A DNA stretch of 64,000 nt, taken from positions 6,528,893 to 6,592,892 of the forward strand of contig NC_014623.1 in NCBI RefSeq assembly GCF_000165485.1, read 5' to 3'. Position numbers and translations under genes: made by a program. The notes beneath the pieces are model-generated. The model had not been told where the DNA came from, searched no databases, and worked only from the letters and a program-made list of their open reading frames with translations. This DNA is from Stigmatella aurantiaca DW4/3-1. GTDB lineage: Bacteria > Myxococcota > Myxococcia > Myxococcales > Myxococcaceae. Positions 28,081 through 44,891 of the stretch are shown in pieces; within the stretch, counting starts at the first letter, position 1, and each line of letters opens with the position of its first letter.

Positions 28081-28098
28081 GCCAGGCCAGGTGGCTCA
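28078..28098. terminator. Hairpin overlapping both stop codons of convergent genes
   Basis: Perfect 7-bp inverted repeat TGAGCCA-GGCCAGG-TGGCTCA. Its left arm starts with the stop codon of the small CxxC gene and its right arm ends with the complement of the GMC oxidoreductase stop, so one hairpin can serve both transcripts. Confidence 0.55.
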
Positions 28099-30489
28099 GG
28101 CCGTCAGTTCCTCGGGGCCCACCGGCTTCCAATAGATGTCGAAGAGCCCCCCCAGGAAGAAGCGCCCGAAGCGTCCCACCGCATGGAGCTGCTCCTGCGT
28201 GCTCGAGGCATTCGTCACCCGGAAGGTGGAGCACTGCCGGGCGAAGTCATCGAGGGTGATGCGCAGCACGCCCTTCTGGATCAGGGGATCGCCGGGCCCC
28301 TCTCCGCGCCGCACGGTGACGAAGAGCGTCGTGGTGTCCTCCCACATGTCCAAGCCTGGGTCGTCCACCAGTTGCTTGAACCCCTCGAAGAAGAAGCGCT
28401 CCCCGGACTCGGCCAGCAACTGCATCCTGTAGCGCATCTGCTTGACCGAGGGCTGCTGGGGATCCGGCACGAGGACCTGGAGCGTCCCCTTGGTGACCGT
28501 CAGCGGCTGAGGGGAGAGCCCCGGTGCCAGCACACACCCGGTCACCCGCGTGGCATGCATCGGGTCGTCCAGCAGGGCGTTCACGTCCGCCACGAGCACC
28601 GTGATGATGAAGCGGAAGCTGGAGGCCCCTGCCCGATCCGGCGCCGCGGCCTCGCGGTAGTCCTCGTCCACCGCGCCAGAGATGATGCCCTGCAGGCTCT
28701 CGGTGAAGCGCAGGCCCACGGGCTTCGCGGGCGCGGGCGGCAATTGCCCCGGAAGGGCCGAATAGTCGATGTGCCAGCCCTCCCGCTGCGCCATGAGCGC
28801 GCAGAAGCGCTCGGCCACCGCGGAGATGGTGAGGAAGGGATTGGTGCCCAGCGAGCGGGGGATGACGGCCCCATCGCAGACATAGAGTCCCGCGTGGACC
28901 GCCGTGCCTGATTCCTCCGAGAAGACGCGGCCCTCGTGGTCCACCACCCCACTGGCTGCGTCCTCCGCCATGACGCAGCCCCCGAGCGGGTGTGTGACGA
29001 GAATGGCATTGTCCAGCCACCGGGTTCCCATCGGGTTGCGAACGTAGGTGCCCCCGAACACCTCGGTGGCCTTGCGCATCTTCTGGTCCCCCCGGACGAA
29101 GTTCTCCTGCCGCCCCACGCCCGGCCAGACGACGCGCAGGCTGTCCCCATCCAGCCGCAGTTCCCCGCTCCCCGAGTCATGGGACATGACGAAGAGCGTC
29201 TGGGTGTGGTGCAGCGCCCCATGGTAGGGCCCGCGCACCAGCCCCTCCATCACCCGGGCCTGCTCCTTCATCCCGTCCACGAAGCCCTCGTCCGTGTCCT
29301 CCCCCATGATGGGCGCCACCGCCGCGAACAGGGTGGGCAGATAGCCTCCCAGGGCCGCCGGGACCGCCCCCTCCTCGACCACCATGCTGCGCTCCATCGA
29401 GTCCGGGTCTTTCACCTCGATGACCCCGGTGATGGAGGGCCCCACGGGCCCCCTGCCCTCCATGGGCTCATCCCCGTACCCCACGCTGTCCACGGGCACG
29501 TCCAGGTTGTACCCAAAGCCCATCAGATCCCCGTTGCCGGAGAAGTGCCGGCCCAGCTCCCGCGACAGGGGCAGCCCCGCTGCCCGCGAGCGCATGAGGA
29601 TCTCCGTGCTGCCCAGGGTGCCGGCCGACAGGATGACCCGGTCCGCGGTGAGAAACTGGAGCGGCGAGTCGAACACTTCGCGGCCCACCCCCACCAGCCG
29701 GTAGTACACGCGCCAGTGGCCTTGGTGACGCGCCAGGTGGTGCACGGCCACGTGCGTGAACAGCTCCGCGCCGTGGCGCTGCGCGTCCGGCAGGTAGTTC
29801 ATCTGCGTGCTGTTCTTGGCACCCACGTTGCAGCCGGTGGCGCAGTCTCCGCAGAGCGTGCAGGCTCCCTGCCGGACCCCCGCGGGGTTGACCCCCGCCT
29901 CGAAGTGAATGCTCAGCGGGGGGCGGAAGAACCGTCCTCCCACCGCTTCCGCGGCCTGCTCCAGCAGGTTCAGCTTGCGAGGGGCGGGGCGGTTCTCGGG
30001 ATACGGCTGGACGCCCAGCATCCGCTCCACGTGGGTGAAACCATCCGCGATCCGGCCGCCGATGTCCGCGCGGAATGCCGCGGGCCAGCTCTCGTCCTGG
30101 AGGACGCGCGGGTCCGGCCGCAGCGCCACATTGGCATTGATGAGCGAGGTGCCTCCCAGGCCGCACCCGGTGAGCACGGCCACATCGCCCAGCAGGTGCA
30201 ATGAGAGCAATCCCGTGGGGGACCCGAGCCGAAGCTTGCCCAGCAGGCTCCCGCCTGGCCCGGACATCTGCACATCTTTCAAAAGCTGGCCACTGGTCCG
30301 GGGAAACTCGCCCGGCAAACGCTCCTTGCCTCTCTCCAGGACGCAGACCTTCTGCCCCGCCCGGGCCAACCGGGAGGCGGCAATGGCTCCCCCGTAACCC
30401 GAACCCACGATCACCACGGGCCAGTGTTCACCCAATCTCTCAAGAGAAGAGGACAGCTGACGCATCTTCCAGACCTCCAGACCGCTCAC
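28096..30489 (-). CDS. GMC family FAD-dependent oxidoreductase (cholesterol-oxidase-like)
   Basis: 797 aa. The FAD-binding motif is 'PVVIVGSGYGGAIAASRLARAG' (about 24-45). 'GCGLGGTSLINANVALRPDPRVL' and the near-terminal 'THPLGGCVMAEDAASGVVDHEGRVFS' are the GMC blocks of cholesterol-oxidase-like enzymes. A Cys cluster 'CTLCGDCATGCNVGAKN' in the middle is typical of the bacterial subgroup. After the GMC core (about 1-550) there is a ~230-residue C-terminal extension of unknown fold. It would oxidise a bulky alcohol or sterol-like substrate. The first Met (30489) and an internal one (30465) are both possible starts. Convergent with the Fur-controlled small gene. Confidence 0.85.
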   Translation of the reverse strand: MSGLEVWKMRQLSSSLERLGEHWPVVIVGSGYGGAIAASRLARAGQKVCVLERGKERLPGEFPRTSGQLLKDVQMSGPGGSLLGKLRLGSPTGLLSLHLLGDVAVLTGCGLGGTSLINANVALRPDPRVLQDESWPAAFRADIGGRIADGFTHVERMLGVQPYPENRPAPRKLNLLEQAAEAVGGRFFRPPLSIHFEAGVNPAGVRQGACTLCGDCATGCNVGAKNSTQMNYLPDAQRHGAELFTHVAVHHLARHQGHWRVYYRLVGVGREVFDSPLQFLTADRVILSAGTLGSTEILMRSRAAGLPLSRELGRHFSGNGDLMGFGYNLDVPVDSVGYGDEPMEGRGPVGPSITGVIEVKDPDSMERSMVVEEGAVPAALGGYLPTLFAAVAPIMGEDTDEGFVDGMKEQARVMEGLVRGPYHGALHHTQTLFVMSHDSGSGELRLDGDSLRVVWPGVGRQENFVRGDQKMRKATEVFGGTYVRNPMGTRWLDNAILVTHPLGGCVMAEDAASGVVDHEGRVFSEESGTAVHAGLYVCDGAVIPRSLGTNPFLTISAVAERFCALMAQREGWHIDYSALPGQLPPAPAKPVGLRFTESLQGIISGAVDEDYREAAAPDRAGASSFRFIITVLVADVNALLDDPMHATRVTGCVLAPGLSPQPLTVTKGTLQVLVPDPQQPSVKQMRYRMQLLAESGERFFFEGFKQLVDDPGLDMWEDTTTLFVTVRRGEGPGDPLIQKGVLRITLDDFARQCSTFRVTNASSTQEQLHAVGRFGRFFLGGLFDIYWKPVGPEELTA

Positions 30490-30607
30490 TGCCCCCCATC
30501 CTGCTCCGAGTTCGAGTCTTACGGAATTCGTTCACCCGCCAGCTATTAGAAGCTCCTCTAGGTGCCGTGGCTGGAAGCGAGGGGTTGCCCGCCTGCGTGG
30601 GGGGATT

Positions 30608-31870
30608 TCACGAGAACCGCGCCCAGGCGAGGGTCTCCTGCAGACAGAGCGCCCGGTCTCCGGTGAGTCCTTCCCGAGGGAGCGCCAGGAAATCGGGCGC
30701 CAGATCCACATTCCGGGAGAGAACCTGGAAGCACTCCACCGCGGCCTGGTCCAACGTCTCTCGAGCGCACCCGGAAGAGACCTCTGGATGGGCCACCAGG
30801 GTCAGCCTCACCCGCGCCAGCCGCACGGACAAGCGATACACGTACGCCTGCAACCCGAAAGCTTCCGTATGCGGGTGACGCAGCAGGTAGTTTTCCAAAT
30901 AGTGATGAAAATACTGCTCAAGCCGGGGGCCGTGATGCGCTTCGAGCCCGGCCCGCCGCACGGTGTAGAGGCGCCACGCGCCGGAGCCGTCCTGGGCCTC
31001 CTCCCCCGTCACGCCCAACGCCATCCGGCTCCCCTGAACGAACCGGGCAAAGCGCTCGCTGCGGGTGACCCCGCTCAAGTCCTTGAGCTGCGTGAGGAGC
31101 CGCAGGACGCGCGGGCCTCCCTCTTCCCATGGCTCCAGGGGCTCCCGGGGAACTTGCGCCACGGCCATGGCAGCCCCTCCGCTCTGAAGTTCCGCCCGCA
31201 GCAGTGCGCCGATTTCCTCCTCCCCCTCAGGAAGAGGGTTCGGCCCCCGGAACAGCGCATCCATCCGGAACGCCCACCGCGCCAGGGCGGAGAGCCGCGA
31301 GGACAACGGGTGCCCCCTCGGCAGCAAGAATTCCCGCAGGGCGTCGCGGACCGCCCCCGCGTGGAGGACATAGGGGTCTCCCGGCAACCCAGGGGCGGGA
31401 CGCGCCGCTTCAGGGCGGGTTACCAGCCCGGGGGTCACGGGCACCGGCTCCACCGCATCCTCCGCCAGGAGCAACAGGCGGACGGCCTCCGGGCACGCCA
31501 ATGAGCCCGAGACCTCCAACCGCCCGTCCTGTTTCCAGAGCGTGCGCGGAAAGGTGGAACAGACATCCGGCAACACGGCTTCCCCGTGGTCCCGGTGGAG
31601 CGAACAATTCCGCTCGGCGGAGAAGAAGACACAGTGCCCATCCGGCCGCATGCGCAAGAGCACCCGCTCCGAGGGAGCCCCTTCCGGAAAGGGGATGCTG
31701 AACTCCTCGATGGGCTCTGGCGCTCCGGCGGCTCGCAGCGTCTCGTGGATCCGCTGCACGCTCGCCTCGCTTACCCCCACCCGGAGCCCCCCGCAGCAGG
31801 TGTCCTCGCAGCGCTCCGCGATGCAGCGAAACCGCGTCATGAAGCGCAGCGTGGTGGCCGGGATCGTCAA
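30608..31870 (-). CDS. FliB-family lysine N-methylase (flagellin lysine-N-methylase homologue)
   Basis: 420 aa. The N-terminal Cys cluster is the family hallmark: 'RFRCIAERCEDTCCGGLRV' followed by 'CVFFSAERNCSLHRDHGEAVLPDVCSTFPR' and 'SGSLACPEAVRLLLL'. The C-terminal block 'YFHHYLENYLLRHPHTEAFG' also matches FliB. FliB proteins methylate lysine side chains of flagellin in enteric bacteria. Myxobacteria are non-flagellated gliders, and no flagellar gene is present, so the substrate must differ. The gene begins 13 bp after the stop of a lysine-rich histone-like protein on the same strand, which makes that protein the obvious candidate substrate. Family assignment is confident; the substrate is inference. 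Confidence 0.82.
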   Translation of the reverse strand: MTIPATTLRFMTRFRCIAERCEDTCCGGLRVGVSEASVQRIHETLRAAGAPEPIEEFSIPFPEGAPSERVLLRMRPDGHCVFFSAERNCSLHRDHGEAVLPDVCSTFPRTLWKQDGRLEVSGSLACPEAVRLLLLAEDAVEPVPVTPGLVTRPEAARPAPGLPGDPYVLHAGAVRDALREFLLPRGHPLSSRLSALARWAFRMDALFRGPNPLPEGEEEIGALLRAELQSGGAAMAVAQVPREPLEPWEEGGPRVLRLLTQLKDLSGVTRSERFARFVQGSRMALGVTGEEAQDGSGAWRLYTVRRAGLEAHHGPRLEQYFHHYLENYLLRHPHTEAFGLQAYVYRLSVRLARVRLTLVAHPEVSSGCARETLDQAAVECFQVLSRNVDLAPDFLALPREGLTGDRALCLQETLAWARFS

Positions 31871-31883
31871 GCGGCGGCCACGA

Positions 31884-32558
31884 TCAGCGGCTGGTCCACC
31901 AGTTCTTGAACTGCTTCCAGGAGATCTTCCCGCTGCGATCGATGTCGATGATGTCGAAGGCGATCTGCAGGTCCTCGTCGGTGATGTTCTGGCCGAGCGC
32001 CTCCAGCAGCCGGGCGAACTCCGGCGCCTCGATGAAACCGGTCCGGTTGCGATCGTACTTCTGGAAGATGTCGAGCAGTTCGTTGCCCGTGCTGGTCAGG
32101 TCATCGACGGCCGCGTGCTCGGGCGCGAGCGGTTGGATGCCAGCCGACGTGGTCTCGACCACCTGCGCCTGCTCCTCGTTGAACGTTTCCTCTTCCCCCT
32201 CCTGCGCCTCCTGCTCATGGCTCTCGGGGAGATCCGCCACCTTCTGACGGGCCGCCGGCTTGCGGACCTTCGGAGCCGCCTTCTTCACCGCGGCCTTGGC
32301 CGATGACGCCACCGGGGCCTTGCGCGCGGGCTTCTTCGCCGCGGCCTTGCGCGCGGGCTTCGCCGCGGCCTTCCGGGCTGCCTTCTTCGCCGCGGCCTTG
32401 CGCGCGGGCTTCGCCACGGCCTTCCGGGCTGCCTTCTTCGCCGCGGCCTTGCGCGCGGGCTTTTTCGCCACGGCCTTCCGGGCTGCCTTTTTCGCGGTGG
32501 ACTGACGCTTCGCCGGTTGCTTCGCGGTGGCCTTCTTGCCTGGCTTCTTCTTCGCCAT
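31884..32558 (-). CDS. Histone-H1-like lysine-rich tail fused to a C-terminal EF-hand pair
   Basis: 224 aa from the ATG at 32558 (MAKKKPGKK). Residues 1 to ~105 are a Lys/Ala/Arg/Pro repeat tail (KAARKAVAKKPARKAAAK and variants) like eukaryotic H1 tails and bacterial histone-H1-like proteins, expected to bind DNA. A Glu/Gln-rich acidic stretch (about 110-145) follows. The C-terminal part is a calmodulin-like EF-hand pair: loop 1 at 169-180 (DRNRTGFIEAPE) is canonical; loop 2 at 205-216 (DIDRSGKISWKQ) has Gln instead of Glu at position 12, so Ca2+ binding there may be weaker. The loops are 36 residues apart, as usual. It forms an operon with the downstream lysine methylase. I infer a nucleoid protein whose DNA binding or modification may respond to Ca2+. 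Confidence 0.85.
   Translation of the reverse strand: MAKKKPGKKATAKQPAKRQSTAKKAARKAVAKKPARKAAAKKAARKAVAKPARKAAAKKAARKAAAKPARKAAAKKPARKAPVASSAKAAVKKAAPKVRKPAARQKVADLPESHEQEAQEGEEETFNEEQAQVVETTSAGIQPLAPEHAAVDDLTSTGNELLDIFQKYDRNRTGFIEAPEFARLLEALGQNITDEDLQIAFDIIDIDRSGKISWKQFKNWWTSR
32341..32496. repeat. 51-bp tandem repeat x3 in the histone-like tail
   Basis: Units beginning gcggccttgcgcgcgggctt start at 32341, 32392 and 32443, giving a 51-bp period (17 residues); the third unit carries a 3-bp insertion. A partial copy precedes them at about 32314. The tail length is therefore likely to vary between strains. Confidence 0.85.
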
Positions 32559-32740
32559 CGTGCGCCCTCCCTGAGGTGTGACGCATCGTATCTGCATGGA
32601 ACTCCCGGCGGCAGGGGATCACGCGATCTTTCCCGCTGTCCCCCCGCCCTGGGCGCCTCCATGTGCCGTGGATCAGACTCCTCCGCGCGGCCCAGTCCTT
32701 GGAGTGCCAATCGATGGCCTGCGACTCGGCTCACAACCAC

Positions 32741-33514
32741 TTATTTCAAGGAAAACTGAACGGGGACGTCAATGATGACGCGCACGGGCCGACCGTGGTG
32801 GCCGATGGCTGGAGAGAACCGCCACTGGCTGACGGCGGCGACGGCCGCATCGTCCAAGGCGGGGACCGAGCGAATGACGCGCGTGTGACCGGCCTCGATG
32901 CGCCCATCCACCCCAATGATGACCCTTACCAGCACCAGCCCCTCGACCCCCGCGTTCCGGGCCCGCCGGGGGTATTGAGGCATCACCTGCTTGAGCACGC
33001 CGGGGGCCCGGGCCACCTGCTTCAGATCCAGGACCTCATCCCCCGTGGCCCCCAGCAGTCCGCCCGCCTCCCCGCCCGCGACGCCTCCCTGGACGCCACC
33101 GGGGCGGGCCTCCCCTGCCTCGGGGCCCGGCGCGGTGGCCGCCGCCACGGGCGCCTCCGCCACCTCCTCCACGGCCGGAGGCTCAGGTACCTGCTCAGGC
33201 GTCTCCACGGGCTCGGGAGGCTTCGGCGAAGGGATTTCCCGGGGCACTTGCAGGACCGCGCGCTGTGCGGGGCGGACGCGGGGAGAACGCGGGGCGGGCT
33301 CGGGCGTGGGAAGGGCCACGGCTCCGGCCGCAGGAGGCGGAGGCTTGAAGGAGAGGAACACCAGCTCGGGCTCCTCGGGCTTGACGGCAGGCTTCGGACC
33401 CACCGGGGGCAGCGACACCACCCACGCCAACGCCGCGAGGTGGATCAGCACCGCCAGAACGCTGGCGCCTCCCCACCGGCCCCACTCCCCAGGTCCCCGA
33501 GAGCCATCCCCCAT
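32741..33514 (-). CDS. tonB: Energy transducer TonB
   Basis: 257 aa from the ATG at 33514, which has GGGGGG about 10 nt upstream. The frame is open to an ATG at 33604, but that codon lies inside a Fur box, so I take the later start. One N-terminal membrane anchor ('GGASVLAVLIHLAALAWVVSL') is followed by a Pro/Glu-rich periplasmic spacer and the TonB C-terminal domain ('VMPQYPRRARNAGVEGLVLVRVIIGVDGRIEAGHTRVIRSVPALDDAAVAAVSQWRF' region). It transmits proton-motive energy to TonB-dependent outer-membrane receptors. No exbB or exbD is adjacent. The Fur box at 33584-33603 indicates control by iron. Confidence 0.88.
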   Translation of the reverse strand: MGDGSRGPGEWGRWGGASVLAVLIHLAALAWVVSLPPVGPKPAVKPEEPELVFLSFKPPPPAAGAVALPTPEPAPRSPRVRPAQRAVLQVPREIPSPKPPEPVETPEQVPEPPAVEEVAEAPVAAATAPGPEAGEARPGGVQGGVAGGEAGGLLGATGDEVLDLKQVARAPGVLKQVMPQYPRRARNAGVEGLVLVRVIIGVDGRIEAGHTRVIRSVPALDDAAVAAVSQWRFSPAIGHHGRPVRVIIDVPVQFSLK

Positions 33515-40600: not shown

Positions 40601-41999
40601 CGTCGGCGGGGGTGGCCATGGAGGAGGTGCTCGTGCCGCTGAAATCCTGCGCCTCCGCGCGCAGCGAGTCGTTGCCCAGCCCTCCGCGGCCATAGTTGTC
40701 CTGCTGGGCGTTGCCCGTGGCCTCGGTGAAGCCCGCGTCGTAGTACCAATCGTGCAGGAAGTTGTTGACGTAGAAGAGCTGCGTCACCGCCGCCATGCGC
40801 TGCTGAGCACTGGACCCCGGATCCAGGGTGACATCGTAAACGCGATCGAAGGTGGACGTCCCGCTGAGGGACGCGCGGAAGTCCGAGCCATCCAACCCAT
40901 CGCTCCCGGAGATGTCCACGTAGGCATCCACGTTGTTGCCCACCGTCTCGGACGCGCCCGTGGGCAGCCAGGGATCATTGCGGCTGAAGGGAGCGTTGCT
41001 CAACGTCACGGCATTGGGGGCCACGAAGGGGGCCTGGTACCCATCGGGAATGCCCGTGGGGTGGGGCGTGCCAGCAAGCCCCTGCGGTCCGTCATGAGGC
41101 AGGTACGGACTGACGGAATCGGCCCACACGCGGAAGGAGAAGGTGTCCGCGGCGGTGAGGTTGTGACGGAAGAGCAACCGCCCGTCGTCCGCGGCGATGA
41201 CATAGGAGTAATAGTCCGCCTCGGCCTCCGGCGCCTGGGTGTGCAGTTCCACGTACCAGGCGGGGACCAGCCGGTCCGGCATCGAGAAGAAGACGCGCCG
41301 GGCCCGGGCGGGCGTGAGCAACCGGGCGGGAGACCGTGCGCCCGCGGCCGGGGTGAACCCATAAAAGGCATCGCGTCCCTGCATGGGACCCTGCTGGACC
41401 AGGCTGGAAGACTCCCACCGCACCCCCTGGAGATCCGCGTATGCGGCGGCGATGGCCTCCTGGGCATTCCAGGTGAAGCGGAGCCTGCCCGCCTGGGAAC
41501 CCGGGGCCACGTGCGGGGAGAGGTGGCCCGAGACGGCGACAAGCTCGTGGCGCTCGTTCATCAACACCTGGAGGGACTCCCGGAAAAGCTCGATGCCCTC
41601 CAGTTCCTGCCGAAAGGTGACGAGCACGGCCCCGTGCCCCTGAGGAGGCTCTCCCACCGTGGCGGGAATCATGGCCGCTGTCTCCGGCGCCAGCCCATAA
41701 AGCGCGGAGAGCCGCGACAGGTGGGCGCGCGCGGCCTGCTCCGGGCCCATCCGCCTGAGCGCCGACAGGAACCGAGGGTCCACCCCCGAGCGCAGGCCCC
41801 ACACCCACGTGGGGGTGCCCCACTTCGGCTCGGTGCCCACCCCCCGTGCTCCCGGCACCCGCGTGGGCCAGTGGGATGGCGCCAGAGGCCTGGACGAAGC
41901 GCTCTGCGAGGACATATCCAGGGCAGGCAGCTCCCGTGCGCCCACGAGACCCGGCAACACGAGCACGAGGCCAGTGACGAAGAACACCCAGCGCTTCAT
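37614..41999 (-). CDS. M36 (fungalysin) family metalloprotease with MYXO-CTERM anchor
   Basis: 1461 aa. Signal peptide about 1-21, then an FTP-like propeptide (about 85-190). The catalytic domain carries 'LVAHEWGHYMSNRL' (His632 and the second His bind Zn, Glu is the base) and 'MGEGWADF'. A PA insert (about 500-620: 'GKILLIDRGSCTDPVKVKNAQNAGALGVII') sits within it. Next are a beta-sandwich region ('WDIDNVSFSGL') and two PKD/Ig-like repeats ('AQAGPDQTVDERSTVTLEG' and 'SVAGEDQTVLEGTQVTLSG'). An Asp/Gly/Pro-rich linker leads to the MYXO-CTERM tail: 'SGCGCAAGEGS', a hydrophobic helix and Arg-rich end. That tail is recognised by myxosortase for surface sorting. Probably a surface protease used on prey proteins. 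Confidence 0.9.
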   Translation of the reverse strand: MKRWVFFVTGLVLVLPGLVGARELPALDMSSQSASSRPLAPSHWPTRVPGARGVGTEPKWGTPTWVWGLRSGVDPRFLSALRRMGPEQAARAHLSRLSALYGLAPETAAMIPATVGEPPQGHGAVLVTFRQELEGIELFRESLQVLMNERHELVAVSGHLSPHVAPGSQAGRLRFTWNAQEAIAAAYADLQGVRWESSSLVQQGPMQGRDAFYGFTPAAGARSPARLLTPARARRVFFSMPDRLVPAWYVELHTQAPEAEADYYSYVIAADDGRLLFRHNLTAADTFSFRVWADSVSPYLPHDGPQGLAGTPHPTGIPDGYQAPFVAPNAVTLSNAPFSRNDPWLPTGASETVGNNVDAYVDISGSDGLDGSDFRASLSGTSTFDRVYDVTLDPGSSAQQRMAAVTQLFYVNNFLHDWYYDAGFTEATGNAQQDNYGRGGLGNDSLRAEAQDFSGTSTSSMATPADGARPKMQMYVFAPNPLQSITVVSPPEVAGKKGSRWATFGPRVFNVTGQLVLAKDGTGSPTDGCQVQQGTPAGKILLIDRGSCTDPVKVKNAQNAGALGVIIAHTLSGPPPDLTGTDASITTPVLSMGWADAKDLKAQLLNGPVEVRLVREPAAFRDGALDTSLVAHEWGHYMSNRLIANANGLTNNQGRAMGEGWADFQALLLMARAEDAQLPGNAGFSGAYAVGGHVSSGGDSDGHYFGLRRYPYSSNFSLNPLTFKYIANGVALPTTAPSNPRLSGFSNASIYNSGEVWASMLWECYTSLLRDSPRLSFEEAQRRMKRYLVLSSQLTPVAPTFLQARDALLAAALAESWEDFRLFHAAFARRGAGLRAVAPPRDSLNHAGVVESFASGKDVEWAGAELVEAPGSCDNDGVVDHGEVGLLRVTIDNTGIDTVSATTAQVQSTDPGVTIGNGGRLVFPPIAPFESATVELPVSVEGPAEIRFITFQITYQDADQAVPGARTVSFSERINVDEVPASSSTDDVESRLVTWTMTKDETLGHPTLWSRRAETPVAHSFFGPNASFKADISLMSPPLQVSAVENFRFTFVHRFEFEADAFDLLDGGVMELSKDDGATWMDIGAFATPGYTDILYEYGTNPLAGRPVYGDISDGYPAWVPVTVDLGTQYAGQTVRIRFRIGTDVNVGAAGWDIDNVSFSGLTHTPFSTLGVESSSCVNTPPVAQAGPDQTVDERSTVTLEGGESSDTDPGTVLAYTWTQLSGPPVVLVGASTARPTFTAPEVVAETALSFQLTVSDGQALSNDTVNVTVRDVNRAPASVAGEDQTVLEGTQVTLSGSGTDPDGDPVTYAWRQTAGPEVALVGTDSAQTGFTAPEVSQTTVLAFALTVTDDQGASGEDEVSITVKAEEEPVPDAGPGEDGGPEDGGGPGQPDGGEGTPDGGDAGSGTDGGTEENVTAESGCGCAAGEGSLASLMPLLLGALGWVSRRRLSAAPATRTARRR

Positions 42000-42150
42000 G
42001 ATTCCTCCACGCCGAACCCTTCGCGCCCCGAAGCTTGAGGCAGGCGAGGAGATCAGCCGTCAGCGTGCTCGACTTTACGCTCGCTTCCCCGCTCCTGGCG
42101 AGGGGCCCTCCCTTCCCCAGGAGAGACCGTGCGCACCACGGCTTCCAGAC

Positions 42151-43221
42151 ATGGCGCATAATCCCTTGCTCATGGTGCCTCCCCGCCCTCTGCGACGCAT
42201 GGGCCTCGTGCTCATGCTCGCCCTTCTGGCCTCGTGCCGCATCGAGTCCGCCGCGCCCTCGGACGCTCCCCGCGCGTCACACCTGGAAGGGGCGCCTTCC
42301 GGCGACGTCTGGGTCTACACCTCCATGTATCGGCACGTGCTGGACGCACTCGATCCCTTGCTCCGGGAGAAGCTGCCCCAGGTCCAGATTCATTGGTACC
42401 AGGCGGGAAGCGAGAAGGTCGCCAGCCGGCTGGAGGCCGAGCGCTCTGCTGGCGCCGTCCGGGCCGATGTGCTCGCGACGTCCGATCCCTTCCTTTATGA
42501 GCGGCTCGCCCGCGAGGGCGCCTTCCTGCGCTATGCCTCCCCGAACGTGCTCCGGGTGCCGCGCTCCCTCATGGAGCTGGATGCCCACTACGCGGCGATG
42601 CGCCTGTCCACCATGGTCCTCGTGCGCCGGCAAGGCCTGGAGAACCCGCCTTCCGCGTTCGGAGACCTGATCAGCGAGCACTGGAAGGGGCGAGCGGCCA
42701 TCGGGGACCCACTCACCTCGGGGACCGCGTTCACCTGGGCCGTGTTCCTCCAGGCGAAGTACGGCGACACGTTCTTCGAGCGCCTGAGGTCCAAGGGCAC
42801 CCTCGTCGCGGGTGGCAACGCCGCCGTGCTCCAGAAGGTCGAGAGCGGCGAGGCGGATGTGGGGGTCCTCCTGCTCGAGAACGCCCTGGCCGCACGCGAG
42901 CGGGGCAGTCCCATCACCTTCACGTGGCCCGAAGATGGCGCCGTCGTCATTCCCGGGCCCGTGGCCATCTTCCAGACGACCCCCAATCCCACGGCGGCCA
43001 AGGCCTTCGTGGACGTGCTCCTCTCCGCCGAAGGCCAGCGGATCATCGCGGGCAAAGGGGACATGCACTCCGTGGATCCCCGCCTCGAAGGACCCAGGGG
43101 CGAGCCCGGGCTGGAGGCCCTGATGGCGCGGGCCCAGCCCTGGACGCCCGAGCTGCTCGAGCGCGGTCTCGTGCAGGGCAGCGACTTGAAGGAGCGCTTC
43201 AGCCGGGCCTTCTCCCAATGA
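42151..43221 (+). CDS. ABC transporter solute-binding lipoprotein (iron-type family)
   Basis: 356 aa from the ATG at 42151 (another at 42172). The lipoprotein signal 'RRMGLVLMLALLASC' puts the lipidated Cys near 28. The mature protein has the type II binding fold of Fe3+/spermidine-like proteins: 'GDVWVYTSMYRHVLDALDPLL', 'RADVLATSDPFLYERLAREG', 'AAIGDPLTSGTAFTWAVFLQAKYG', 'GEADVGVLLLENALAA'. The substrate could be ferric iron or a small organic acid. It overlaps the permease gene by 4 nt. No ATPase gene follows. Confidence 0.87.
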   Translation: MAHNPLLMVPPRPLRRMGLVLMLALLASCRIESAAPSDAPRASHLEGAPSGDVWVYTSMYRHVLDALDPLLREKLPQVQIHWYQAGSEKVASRLEAERSAGAVRADVLATSDPFLYERLAREGAFLRYASPNVLRVPRSLMELDAHYAAMRLSTMVLVRRQGLENPPSAFGDLISEHWKGRAAIGDPLTSGTAFTWAVFLQAKYGDTFFERLRSKGTLVAGGNAAVLQKVESGEADVGVLLLENALAARERGSPITFTWPEDGAVVIPGPVAIFQTTPNPTAAKAFVDVLLSAEGQRIIAGKGDMHSVDPRLEGPRGEPGLEALMARAQPWTPELLERGLVQGSDLKERFSRAFSQ

Positions 43222-44891
43222 GCAGACGCCTCCCGGGAGCCCCCTGGTTCGGGCTCGGCGCCTGGCTGGCGCCCATCCTGTTCTTCGCCATCGGCCCCGT
43301 CGCCGTGCTGCTCCTGCGCAGCCTGGGCGCGCCCGGCAGCCTCACCCTCTCCACCCTGGCCCTGGAAGCCGGGGCGCTCGGCAACACGCTCGCCATCTCC
43401 CTGGCGGCCTCGGTGTTCGCGCTCGGGCTTGGGGGGCCCCTCTCGCTCCTGCTCTTTCGCACGGGCCTGCCGTTCCGGCATGTCTTCGTGGCGCTCTTCA
43501 CCCTGCCCTCCGCCATTCCCCCCTTCATCTGGGGCATGGGCTGGCTGTCCCTGGCCAGCCCCCGGGCGGGCTATCTCAACCGGCTTCTGGGCCAGAGCAC
43601 CTTCGACATCTATGGCCCGGGGGGCATCGCCTTCGTCATGGGGTTGTCCGGGCTGCCCCTCGTGCTGCTCGCGGGCGGTGCCGCGCTCCAGCGGGTGGAT
43701 CCCGCGCTGGAGGAGGCCGCTCGCCTGTGCGGCGCCTCCCCCTTCCGTGCCTTGCTGGCAACCACGCTGCCGCTCGCGCTGCCCTCCTTGCTATCGGGCG
43801 CGGTGATGGTGTTTCTGATGACCTCGTCGGCCTTTGGCGTGCCGTACCTGCTCGGCGTATCGGCCTCCCCGCCCACGCGGTTTCTCACCACGCGCATCTA
43901 TGAGCTTGTCCTCCTGGGCGGAGAGGAGAACCTGGCCCGCGCCGGGGGCCTCTCCGCTGCCCTTCTCTTGCTCACCCCCCTGGCCCTGTGGGCCACCTGG
44001 GCCCTGGGCCGCTCGGGCCGCGTTCGCCTGAACGCGGGCAAGGGCTTCTCGTCCCGCCCCATTCCCCTGGCTCGGGCCCGGCTGCCACTCACCGTGGCCG
44101 TGGGCGTGCTGTGCGCCCTGCTGGTGCTCCTCCCACTCGGCGCGGTCCTGCTCACGTCCGTGCAGCGCAGCTTCGGCGCGGAGCTGACCTGGGGAAGCCT
44201 GACGCTCATGCATTGGTCGGGCGTCCTGCTCGAACCGAGAACCCTGTGGGCCACGGGCCGCAGCCTCCTGCTGGCCACGGCGGCCGGGCTGCTGGTGTGC
44301 GCCCTGGGGCTCACCAGCGCCGTGCTTCGCCGTCACTTCCGCCGCTTCGGGGCCGCCGTGGAAGCGCTCGCCGTGTGGCCCTATGCCGTTCCCGGCACGG
44401 TGCTGGCCATCGCGCTGCTCGTCTCCTTCTCCCGCGATCTGCGCTTCATCCTGTTCGATCGCATTGCCTTCGTGCTGGTCCTCTCGCACACCCCGTGGCT
44501 GCTGCTCATCGCCTATGCGGCGAAGCACCTCGCGCTGGGCGCACGCAACAGCGCGGAGGCGCTCGCCCAGGTGGATTCCTCGCTCGCGGAGGCCGCACGG
44601 GTGAGTGGTGCAGGCCCCGTGCGCGCGTTCGTCGACGCTCCCCTGCCCCTGCTGCGCCCGGCGCTCGCCGCGGCCTTCCTGCTGACATTCCTCGCTTGCG
44701 CCACGGAGATCACCATGTCCGTGCTTCTCGTTCCCGCGGGCTCGGAGGTGCTGGGCACACTCTTGTTCGAGTTGCAGAGCTACGCGGATCCCTCGGCCGC
44801 CGCCGTGCTCGCGTGCGCATTCGTGGCCTTGGTGACGCTGGGGCAGGCGTTGCTCTCCCTCGTGCGCCAGCGCAGCGTGGGGGCCCCCTGA
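43218..44891 (+). CDS. ABC transporter permease, two fused membrane domains (FbpB/ThiP-like)
   Basis: 557 aa starting with an ATGA overlap. About twelve helices in two halves, each with an EAA loop: 'DPALEEAARLCGASPFRALLATTLPLALPSLL' (about 170-200) and 'DSSLAEAARVSGAGPVRAFVDAPLPLLRPAL' (about 451-481). Such fused permeases serve Fe3+ or thiamine uptake and need an ATPase dimer. The gene after it, on the opposite strand, is a helicase, so the ATPase must be encoded elsewhere or be shared. Confidence 0.9.
   Translation: MSRRLPGAPWFGLGAWLAPILFFAIGPVAVLLLRSLGAPGSLTLSTLALEAGALGNTLAISLAASVFALGLGGPLSLLLFRTGLPFRHVFVALFTLPSAIPPFIWGMGWLSLASPRAGYLNRLLGQSTFDIYGPGGIAFVMGLSGLPLVLLAGGAALQRVDPALEEAARLCGASPFRALLATTLPLALPSLLSGAVMVFLMTSSAFGVPYLLGVSASPPTRFLTTRIYELVLLGGEENLARAGGLSAALLLLTPLALWATWALGRSGRVRLNAGKGFSSRPIPLARARLPLTVAVGVLCALLVLLPLGAVLLTSVQRSFGAELTWGSLTLMHWSGVLLEPRTLWATGRSLLLATAAGLLVCALGLTSAVLRRHFRRFGAAVEALAVWPYAVPGTVLAIALLVSFSRDLRFILFDRIAFVLVLSHTPWLLLIAYAAKHLALGARNSAEALAQVDSSLAEAARVSGAGPVRAFVDAPLPLLRPALAAAFLLTFLACATEITMSVLLVPAGSEVLGTLLFELQSYADPSAAAVLACAFVALVTLGQALLSLVRQRSVGAP

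Follow-up and report, generated by a model that had tools for sequence, protein, structure and literature searches.

The window analyzed here is a stretch of 64,000 nucleotides from Stigmatella aurantiaca DW4/3-1, corresponding to positions 6,528,893-6,592,892 of a host genome that is a single contig of 10,260,756 bases. On its minus strand two genes are separated by 13 bp (31871-31883). The first, gene A (31884..32558 (-), ATG at 32558, stop codon at 31884-31886), encodes a protein of 224 amino acids (aa) with a histone H1-like tail and an EF-hand pair, and the second, gene B (30608..31870 (-), TTG start), encodes a 420-aa paralogue of the FliB-type lysine N-methylases. A sequence-only reading of this DNA had described the pair, and its coordinates and its tail, acidic linker and EF-hand pair were borne out; it had also proposed that the methylase modifies lysines in its neighbour's tail, as a bacterial analogue of histone methylation. 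Our results show that gene B is a clade-specific add-on and not part of a general histone-methylation system. Modification of the gene A tail within the clade is a live hypothesis, since gene B is an intact, selected and lineage-specific paralogue lying behind the most lysine-rich open reading frame (ORF) of the window.

The gene A protein begins with MAKKKPGKKATAKQ, and its ATG is preceded by a ribosome-binding stretch that we judged to be good (AGGGAGGG). Approximately residues 1-106 (32241..32558 (-)) form a Lys/Ala/Arg/Pro-rich tail with KAARKA-type repeats, of which the composition is kept and the sequence is loose, followed by an acidic linker (approximately residues 107-135, 32154..32240 (-)) that differs outside the clade of four genomes carrying the pair. 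A conserved stretch (VETTSAGIQPLAPEHAAVDDLTSTGN) comes directly after the linker, and the order along the protein is tail, acidic stretch, conserved stretch (VETTSAGIQPLAPEHAAVDDL) and EF-hand pair. The EF-hand pair domain (approximately residues 155-224, 31887..32096 (-)) is the most conserved part of gene A. Residues 160-221 match Pfam EF-hand_6 (9.2e-14) and EF-hand_7 (3.9e-13), the latter profile being passed with 50 bits against a cut-off of 30, and EFCAB6 and calmodulin chains are sequence relatives of the domain. Profiles of histone H1-like proteins were not reached (tail against NCBIfam NF038053, 25.7 bits vs. a cut-off of 80; Pfam HC2, 11.5 vs. 40), and the claim of a histone-like function therefore rests on the composition of the tail. 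Three further stretches of the host genome (at 1139876, 2795905 and 5878728; L164, L165 and L166) also match NF038053 under its cut-off, inside longer frames. Pairwise omega values among the four pair-bearing genomes (Nei-Gojobori, own script) were 0.29-0.45 for the tail and linker (MAKKK to VETTSAG) and 0-0.043 for the EF domain (VETTSAG onward), where one pair with a dS of 0.03 gave 0.146.

For comparison we used 147 genomes of the class, with G000 denoting the window's own, and a wider phylum set of 195 genomes. The EF domain was found in 53 of the 147 class genomes (E 1e-6 or better), all of them in family f1, which is Myxococcaceae in a broad sense (NCBI taxonomy would put the Stigmatella group in Archangiaceae), and the phylum-wide search added a single genome (54 of 195 at 1e-8). 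Loop and tail counts cover 46 of these 53 orthologues; the seven genomes left out (G049, G051, G053, G085, G131, G134 and G136) are all without a FliB match. A long Lys-rich stretch of 107-184 residues precedes the conserved motif in 37 of the 46 (7 in genus group g1, 1 in g8, 27 in g19 and 2 in g5), and these 37 were used for all long-tail comparisons, while the corresponding region of the remaining nine spans 24-79 residues and in two of these contains 0 and 2 lysines. Gene A is of interest in its own right: 37 genomes from four genus groups retain this H1-like protein in its long-tailed form, with an EF-hand-fold domain that is very conserved.

The case for a response to Ca2+ through the EF-hands, as suggested by the sequence-only reading, was weakened. 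The loops were scored by a rule that requires D at position 1, D/N at 3, D/N/S/T/G at 5, G at 6 and E/D at 12. Loop 1 of gene A (DRNRTGFIEAPE, 32019..32054 (-)) satisfies this rule. Loop 2 (DIDRSGKISWKQ, 31911..31946 (-)) has Q and not E/D at position 12, so that ligands at positions 1, 3, 5 and 12 are not present in both loops, and it terminates in Q in all eight g1 and g8 genomes. Among the 46 orthologues both loops followed the rule in 26, only loop 1 in 15, only loop 2 in one and neither in four (G055, G056, G094 and G109); in the loop-2-only case, G129, the pattern missed a loop 1 that passes by eye, which brings the both-loop total to 27. The nine shorter-tailed relatives have two standard loops each (G129 by eye), and in g19 both loops are intact in 18 of 27 genomes. 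The loop losses suggest that two-site Ca2+ binding is not what preserves the EF domain in much of the family, and we infer that the domain serves protein contact there. Loop 1 may still bind Ca2+ in the genus of the window, and Ca2+ may also play a role in g19.

Gene B was confirmed as a FliB homologue with all its Cys blocks. The flagellin lysine-N-methylase profile NF038110 matches residues 9-391 of its 420 with 137.8 bits (cut-off 85), and Pfam CxxCxxCC narrowly misses its cut-off (22.3 vs. 23). A 21-row FliB alignment has eight invariant cysteines, and gene B keeps all of them, four in a CX4CX3CC block (residues 16-26, 31793..31825 (-)) and four at residues 80, 89, 104 and 126 (31493..31633 (-)). 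In Salmonella FliB the CX4CX3CC motif holds the [4Fe-4S] cluster, and its four-fold mutation leads to loss of both cluster and activity (PMC8598068); the motif in gene B was matched to this published description and not aligned residue by residue. A search by sequence returned no solved structure for FliB up to E 1. FliB relatives were also seen in eight plasmid records, from Salmonella, Erwinia, Pantoea and Selenomonas and mostly annotated fliB, with 25-33% identity over 23-36% of the gene B protein, none reaching 80% coverage. Omega was 0.17-0.25 for gene B and 0.17-0.24 for ordinary FliB, which indicates that purifying selection maintains the extra copy as a functional gene. From family, cysteines and selection we infer that gene B encodes an active [4Fe-4S] lysine N-methylase.

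No clear ribosome-binding stretch was seen upstream of the gene B TTG, and gene B is therefore likely to be translationally coupled to gene A, with which it would probably share a transcript, its start lying 13 nt behind the gene A stop. The RNA structure at the junction was as stable as in shuffled sequences (z -0.03). A consensus scan of 30300-32900 revealed no sigma-70-like site, and myxobacterial promoters may differ from that consensus.

FliB scored over the cut-off in 66 of the 147 class genomes. All 37 long-tail genomes contain a FliB somewhere, 14 genomes have an EF match without any FliB match, and the co-distribution of the two follows clades and counts as few events. Several points, to which the qualifications given below with the lysine counts should be added, weigh against gene B being a methylase of gene A. 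By coordinates, FliB adjoins gene A in only 4 of 53 EF genomes, or 4 of the 39 genomes in which both genes occur, and these four (G000, G077, G078 and G079) form one clade, with 0 of 49 among the other EF genomes; adjacency in independent lineages beyond background synteny was thus not found. Another 33 genomes keep the long tail without an adjoining FliB, and 27 have FliB over the cut-off without an EF match (g3 6, g6 16, g7 4, g22 1). Much of the block surrounding the pair is syntenic in the four genomes, as 9 of 9 window probe genes are shared in G077 and 6 of 9 in both G078 and G079, and the retained contact between FliB and gene A is therefore little, and non-independent, evidence. Furthermore, gene B has a longer tip in the FliB tree than the ordinary copy of G000 (0.13 vs. 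0.044). Rare adjacency among relatives was the outcome that the sequence-only reading had itself named as its refutation, and as a general system the proposal is refuted; a pair conserved across the whole family is ruled out by the same count. What is left of it is a recruitment specific to the clade, plausible and yet, in our estimate, somewhat short of probable.

How the pair arose can be followed in the neighbouring genomes. In all four paralogue genomes gene B stands directly behind gene A, with an identical 13-nt gap and TTG start. In G080, G081, G082 and G083, which belong to the same genus group and to the one closest to it in the FliB tree, the gene behind gene A encodes a GMC-type oxidoreductase and follows the gene A stop at 15-25 nt (with ATG as start). 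The corresponding gene of the window (28096..30489 (-)) lies beyond gene B, and in the clade of four FliB thus sits between gene A and the GMC gene. All eight g1 and g8 genomes have gene A next to the GMC gene (with FliB intervening in four), an association more lasting than the FliB contact and therefore the older pair; omega of the GMC gene was 0.12-0.21. Other window probes were missing from the 12-13 kb around gene A in G080-G083, save for a glyoxalase gene in G083. Most simply, by parsimony, FliB would have entered between gene A and the GMC gene once, in the ancestor of the four sequenced species.

The FliB tree comprises 72 rows, all from family f1, and was made by a quick method with SH-aLRT support only; the weak matches of G001 and G009 were omitted by hand, and other weak ones outside f1 (including G145) gave no row. 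The four window-type copies form one clade with support 100 and a stem of 1.1, and the ordinary copies group by genus. A second, ordinary FliB of the host genome (G000:C1:8730924) falls with the ordinary copies of its genus and gene B stands on a separate branch, which rules out gene B as the ordinary FliB of the family. The node that unites the window-type clade with the ordinary FliBs of the genus has a support of 90 (not starred), and at this value a local duplication, an older origin and a transfer are all compatible with gene B. We also considered a 36-residue FliB-like stretch on contig 402 of G081 (38.9% identity to gene B) as a remnant of the paralogue and rejected it, the enclosing 770-aa frame having no other good FliB match. 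A further extra FliB, on a long branch and with other neighbours, including a 391-aa ORF with 7.4% Lys, is present in G082 (L065 4939-6297). Evidently, extra FliB copies have become established at more than one site.

FliB is known as a flagellin enzyme, and the Salmonella protein targets surface-exposed flagellin lysines (PMC8598068). Like it, gene B passes NF038110 and has CX4CX3CC and the eight conserved cysteines; unlike it, gene B resides in a genome without a flagellin match and next to a gene for a lysine-rich tailed protein. The statement of the sequence-only reading that myxobacteria have no flagella agrees with the lack of a Flagellin_N match in G000 and in the remaining six members of its genus group, and it fails for the class, in which 31 of 147 genomes have such a match. 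Gene B is therefore a methylase of the FliB type without being a flagellin methylase in this genome. A flagellin match is lacking in 63 of the 66 class genomes in which FliB passes the cut-off, so that FliB should act on other substrates there, and only G124, G133 and G135 have both. In G124 two FliBs (L083, 3979-5220 and 6954-8201) flank a 564-aa ORF, and the flagellin is on another contig.

If FliB has other substrates, these need not include gene A. Gene B could have been placed in the operon for expression only and modify other proteins, perhaps of the surface or pilus, as the family's ordinary FliB may also do, with gene A left unmethylated, an explanation that we regard as quite possible if somewhat doubtful. 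The surface location of the Salmonella substrate and the 27 FliB genomes without gene A speak for it, and so does the setting of the ordinary FliB in g19, g6 and g5, where in 45 of 45 genomes (L105 1443-6299 and 44 further) it follows a same-strand gene with an Hsp70 domain; 29 of these genomes have gene A elsewhere. The Hsp70 protein may be a candidate target of FliB or a partner that guides it to its target. The distance from the end of the Hsp70 match to the FliB cysteine motif is 40-79 nt in 34 genomes and 260-308 nt in 11. Three of the Hsp70 copies, scanned with Pfam, gave PilZ with 34-36 bits (cut-off 22.5) besides Hsp70 with more than 500 bits, and all 45 genomes contain the PilZ part, 38 of them on the contig with FliB and 7, with fragmented assemblies, on a different contig. 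This arrangement resembles the pair in having FliB behind another gene of the same strand and differs from it in the partner and in involving the ordinary copy, not the paralogue; the block is likewise syntenic within the three groups. In G000 a PilZ-type gene is located at 1,571,161, distant from both FliBs. Against expression as the only reason for the position of gene B is that the extra copy sits behind a rare lysine-rich kind of protein, with unvarying spacing in four species.

How rare that kind of protein is was determined with ORF sets from a GC3-based ORF picker, the calls of which are rough. None of 497 ORFs of at least 100 aa reached 12% Lys outside the EF cluster, compared with 15.2% for gene A (called with an upstream start), and only two rows outside the cluster exceeded 10%, one of which is, by its place, the unclustered gene A of G104. 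Gene A was also the most lysine-rich of the 33 ORFs called in the window, and among 79 ORFs flanking FliB genes it and its three orthologues ranked highest (15-17%; next 7.7%). With lysine-rich genes this rare, a chance landing of FliB beside one would be improbable, by our estimate perhaps <1%, a figure that must be discounted because the pair was picked for this very coincidence. The tails of the clade were also compared with the 33 other long tails. K/(K+R) was 0.76-0.90 in the four vs. 0.59-0.82 in the others (nominal p 0.007), with overlapping ranges, and the number of tail lysines was 32-37 vs. 22-37 (nominal p 0.010); the Lys share of all tail residues did not differ (p 0.11), and tail length gave a p of 0.22. 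As four related genomes were entered as four points, with kinship ignored, this is a single contrast and only a hint. On this evidence we propose, tentatively and as a possibility rather than a probability, that gene B methylates lysines of the gene A tail.

FliB proteins are themselves poor in lysine, as would be expected of an enzyme that modifies accessible lysines. Nine groups of the family had means of 0.56-1.25% and g26 had one of 3.0%, compared with a median of 2.78% in 297 other ORFs of at least 250 residues, 3% of which are at 0.75% or below, and gene B has two lysines in the 400 residues counted. One reading of this is avoidance of self-methylation. It would fit a promiscuous enzyme, which would otherwise modify itself, and gene B could accordingly have a broad specificity, modifying whatever lysine-rich tails are exposed, that of gene A among them, with neither a dedicated partner nor a regulatory function; the three H1-like stretches under the cut-off elsewhere in G000 also speak for this. 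Lysine poverty may have other causes, such as the use of Arg instead in a GC-rich genome (8.5-11.1% R, counted in FliBs only), and we hold broad specificity to be improbable.

As a whole, we favor a clade-specific FliB copy that methylates the gene A tail, an explanation held tentatively and with slightly less than even confidence. Gene A would be a cytoplasmic protein whose tail binds polyanions, DNA or possibly polyphosphate, and whose EF-hand-fold domain chiefly binds a partner, with Ca2+ bound at best via loop 1 in the genus. Gene B originated as an additional FliB copy. Comparison of positions shows that it now separates gene A from the GMC gene, by parsimony as the result of a single event. 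Its foremost substrate would be the gene A tail, perhaps along with other exposed lysine-rich stretches, and methylation would make the tail more hydrophobic and change its grip on DNA or partners. A tail of the H1-like kind is also found in AlgP of Pseudomonas aeruginosa, a DNA-binding protein with an H1-like KPAA-rich tail that associates with polyphosphate granules and affects their spacing (PMC9239181). AlgP thus shares the Lys/Pro/Ala repeat tail of gene A; it differs in being tied to granule spacing, and no EF hands are mentioned in the available part of that report. By analogy, gene A could tether polyphosphate granules or organize another polyanion, its EF-hand fold docking a partner and the methylase being irrelevant. 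The far better conservation of the EF domain than of the tail is what a docking domain would show, but the tail by itself cannot distinguish DNA from polyphosphate, and we consider this explanation very improbable.

Methylation of lysine-rich tails has precedents, and the statement of the sequence-only reading that no system of this kind had been described was too strong. In mycobacteria HupB is methylated, and HbhA carries mono- or dimethyl-lysine at no fewer than 13 of its 16 C-terminal lysines (PMC8467707); HbhA has additionally been assigned to the nucleoid-associated proteins (PMC10665949). When M. tuberculosis MDP1/HupB was produced in M. smegmatis, most lysines of its C-terminal half were methylated in a native-like pattern, by an enzyme stated in that report to be unidentified (PMC11033290). 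These proteins are similar to gene A in their Lys/Ala-rich tail, which in their case carries methyl-lysine and is C-terminal, compared with N-terminal in gene A. They have an HU fold or helices, not EF hands, and to our knowledge no FliB takes part in their methylation. By analogy, the mycobacterial case would support the plausibility of the idea and lessen its novelty. A chlamydial precedent is contested: the C. pneumoniae NUE homologue was reported to methylate Hc1, and C. trachomatis NUE did not (PMC2904774). Here too a bacterium's own lysine methyltransferase was proposed to act on its H1-like protein, but NUE has a SET fold and FliB is an iron-sulfur enzyme.

Searches of the open-licence literature turned up no described bacterial EF-hand protein of an H1-like or nucleoid-associated kind and, on flagellin lysine-N-methylase, nothing on myxobacteria for this subject. 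As far as these searches show, a FliB-type enzyme for a Lys/Ala-rich tail would be new; the enzyme family and the kind of tail are known and their combination is new. Stated in full, FliB would have been recruited in one clade as a dedicated [4Fe-4S] methylase of an H1-like nucleoid protein with an EF-hand domain and, in a wider form, FliB in flagellin-less members of the family would be a methylase of non-flagellin proteins, which taken together we find unlikely. If true, the iron-sulfur enzyme class would join the candidates for methylation of MDP1/HupB-like tails, and tail methylation would proceed by oxygen-sensitive [4Fe-4S] chemistry and not by a SET or Rossmann enzyme. Possibly, the state of the nucleoid could in this way be coupled to the redox state and perhaps to Ca2+.

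Elsewhere in the window, the mechanical ORF picker called two overlapping ORFs at 41809-44891 (+), the first of 470 aa and the second of 655 aa and 0.3% Lys, and at least one of them may be a shadow frame.

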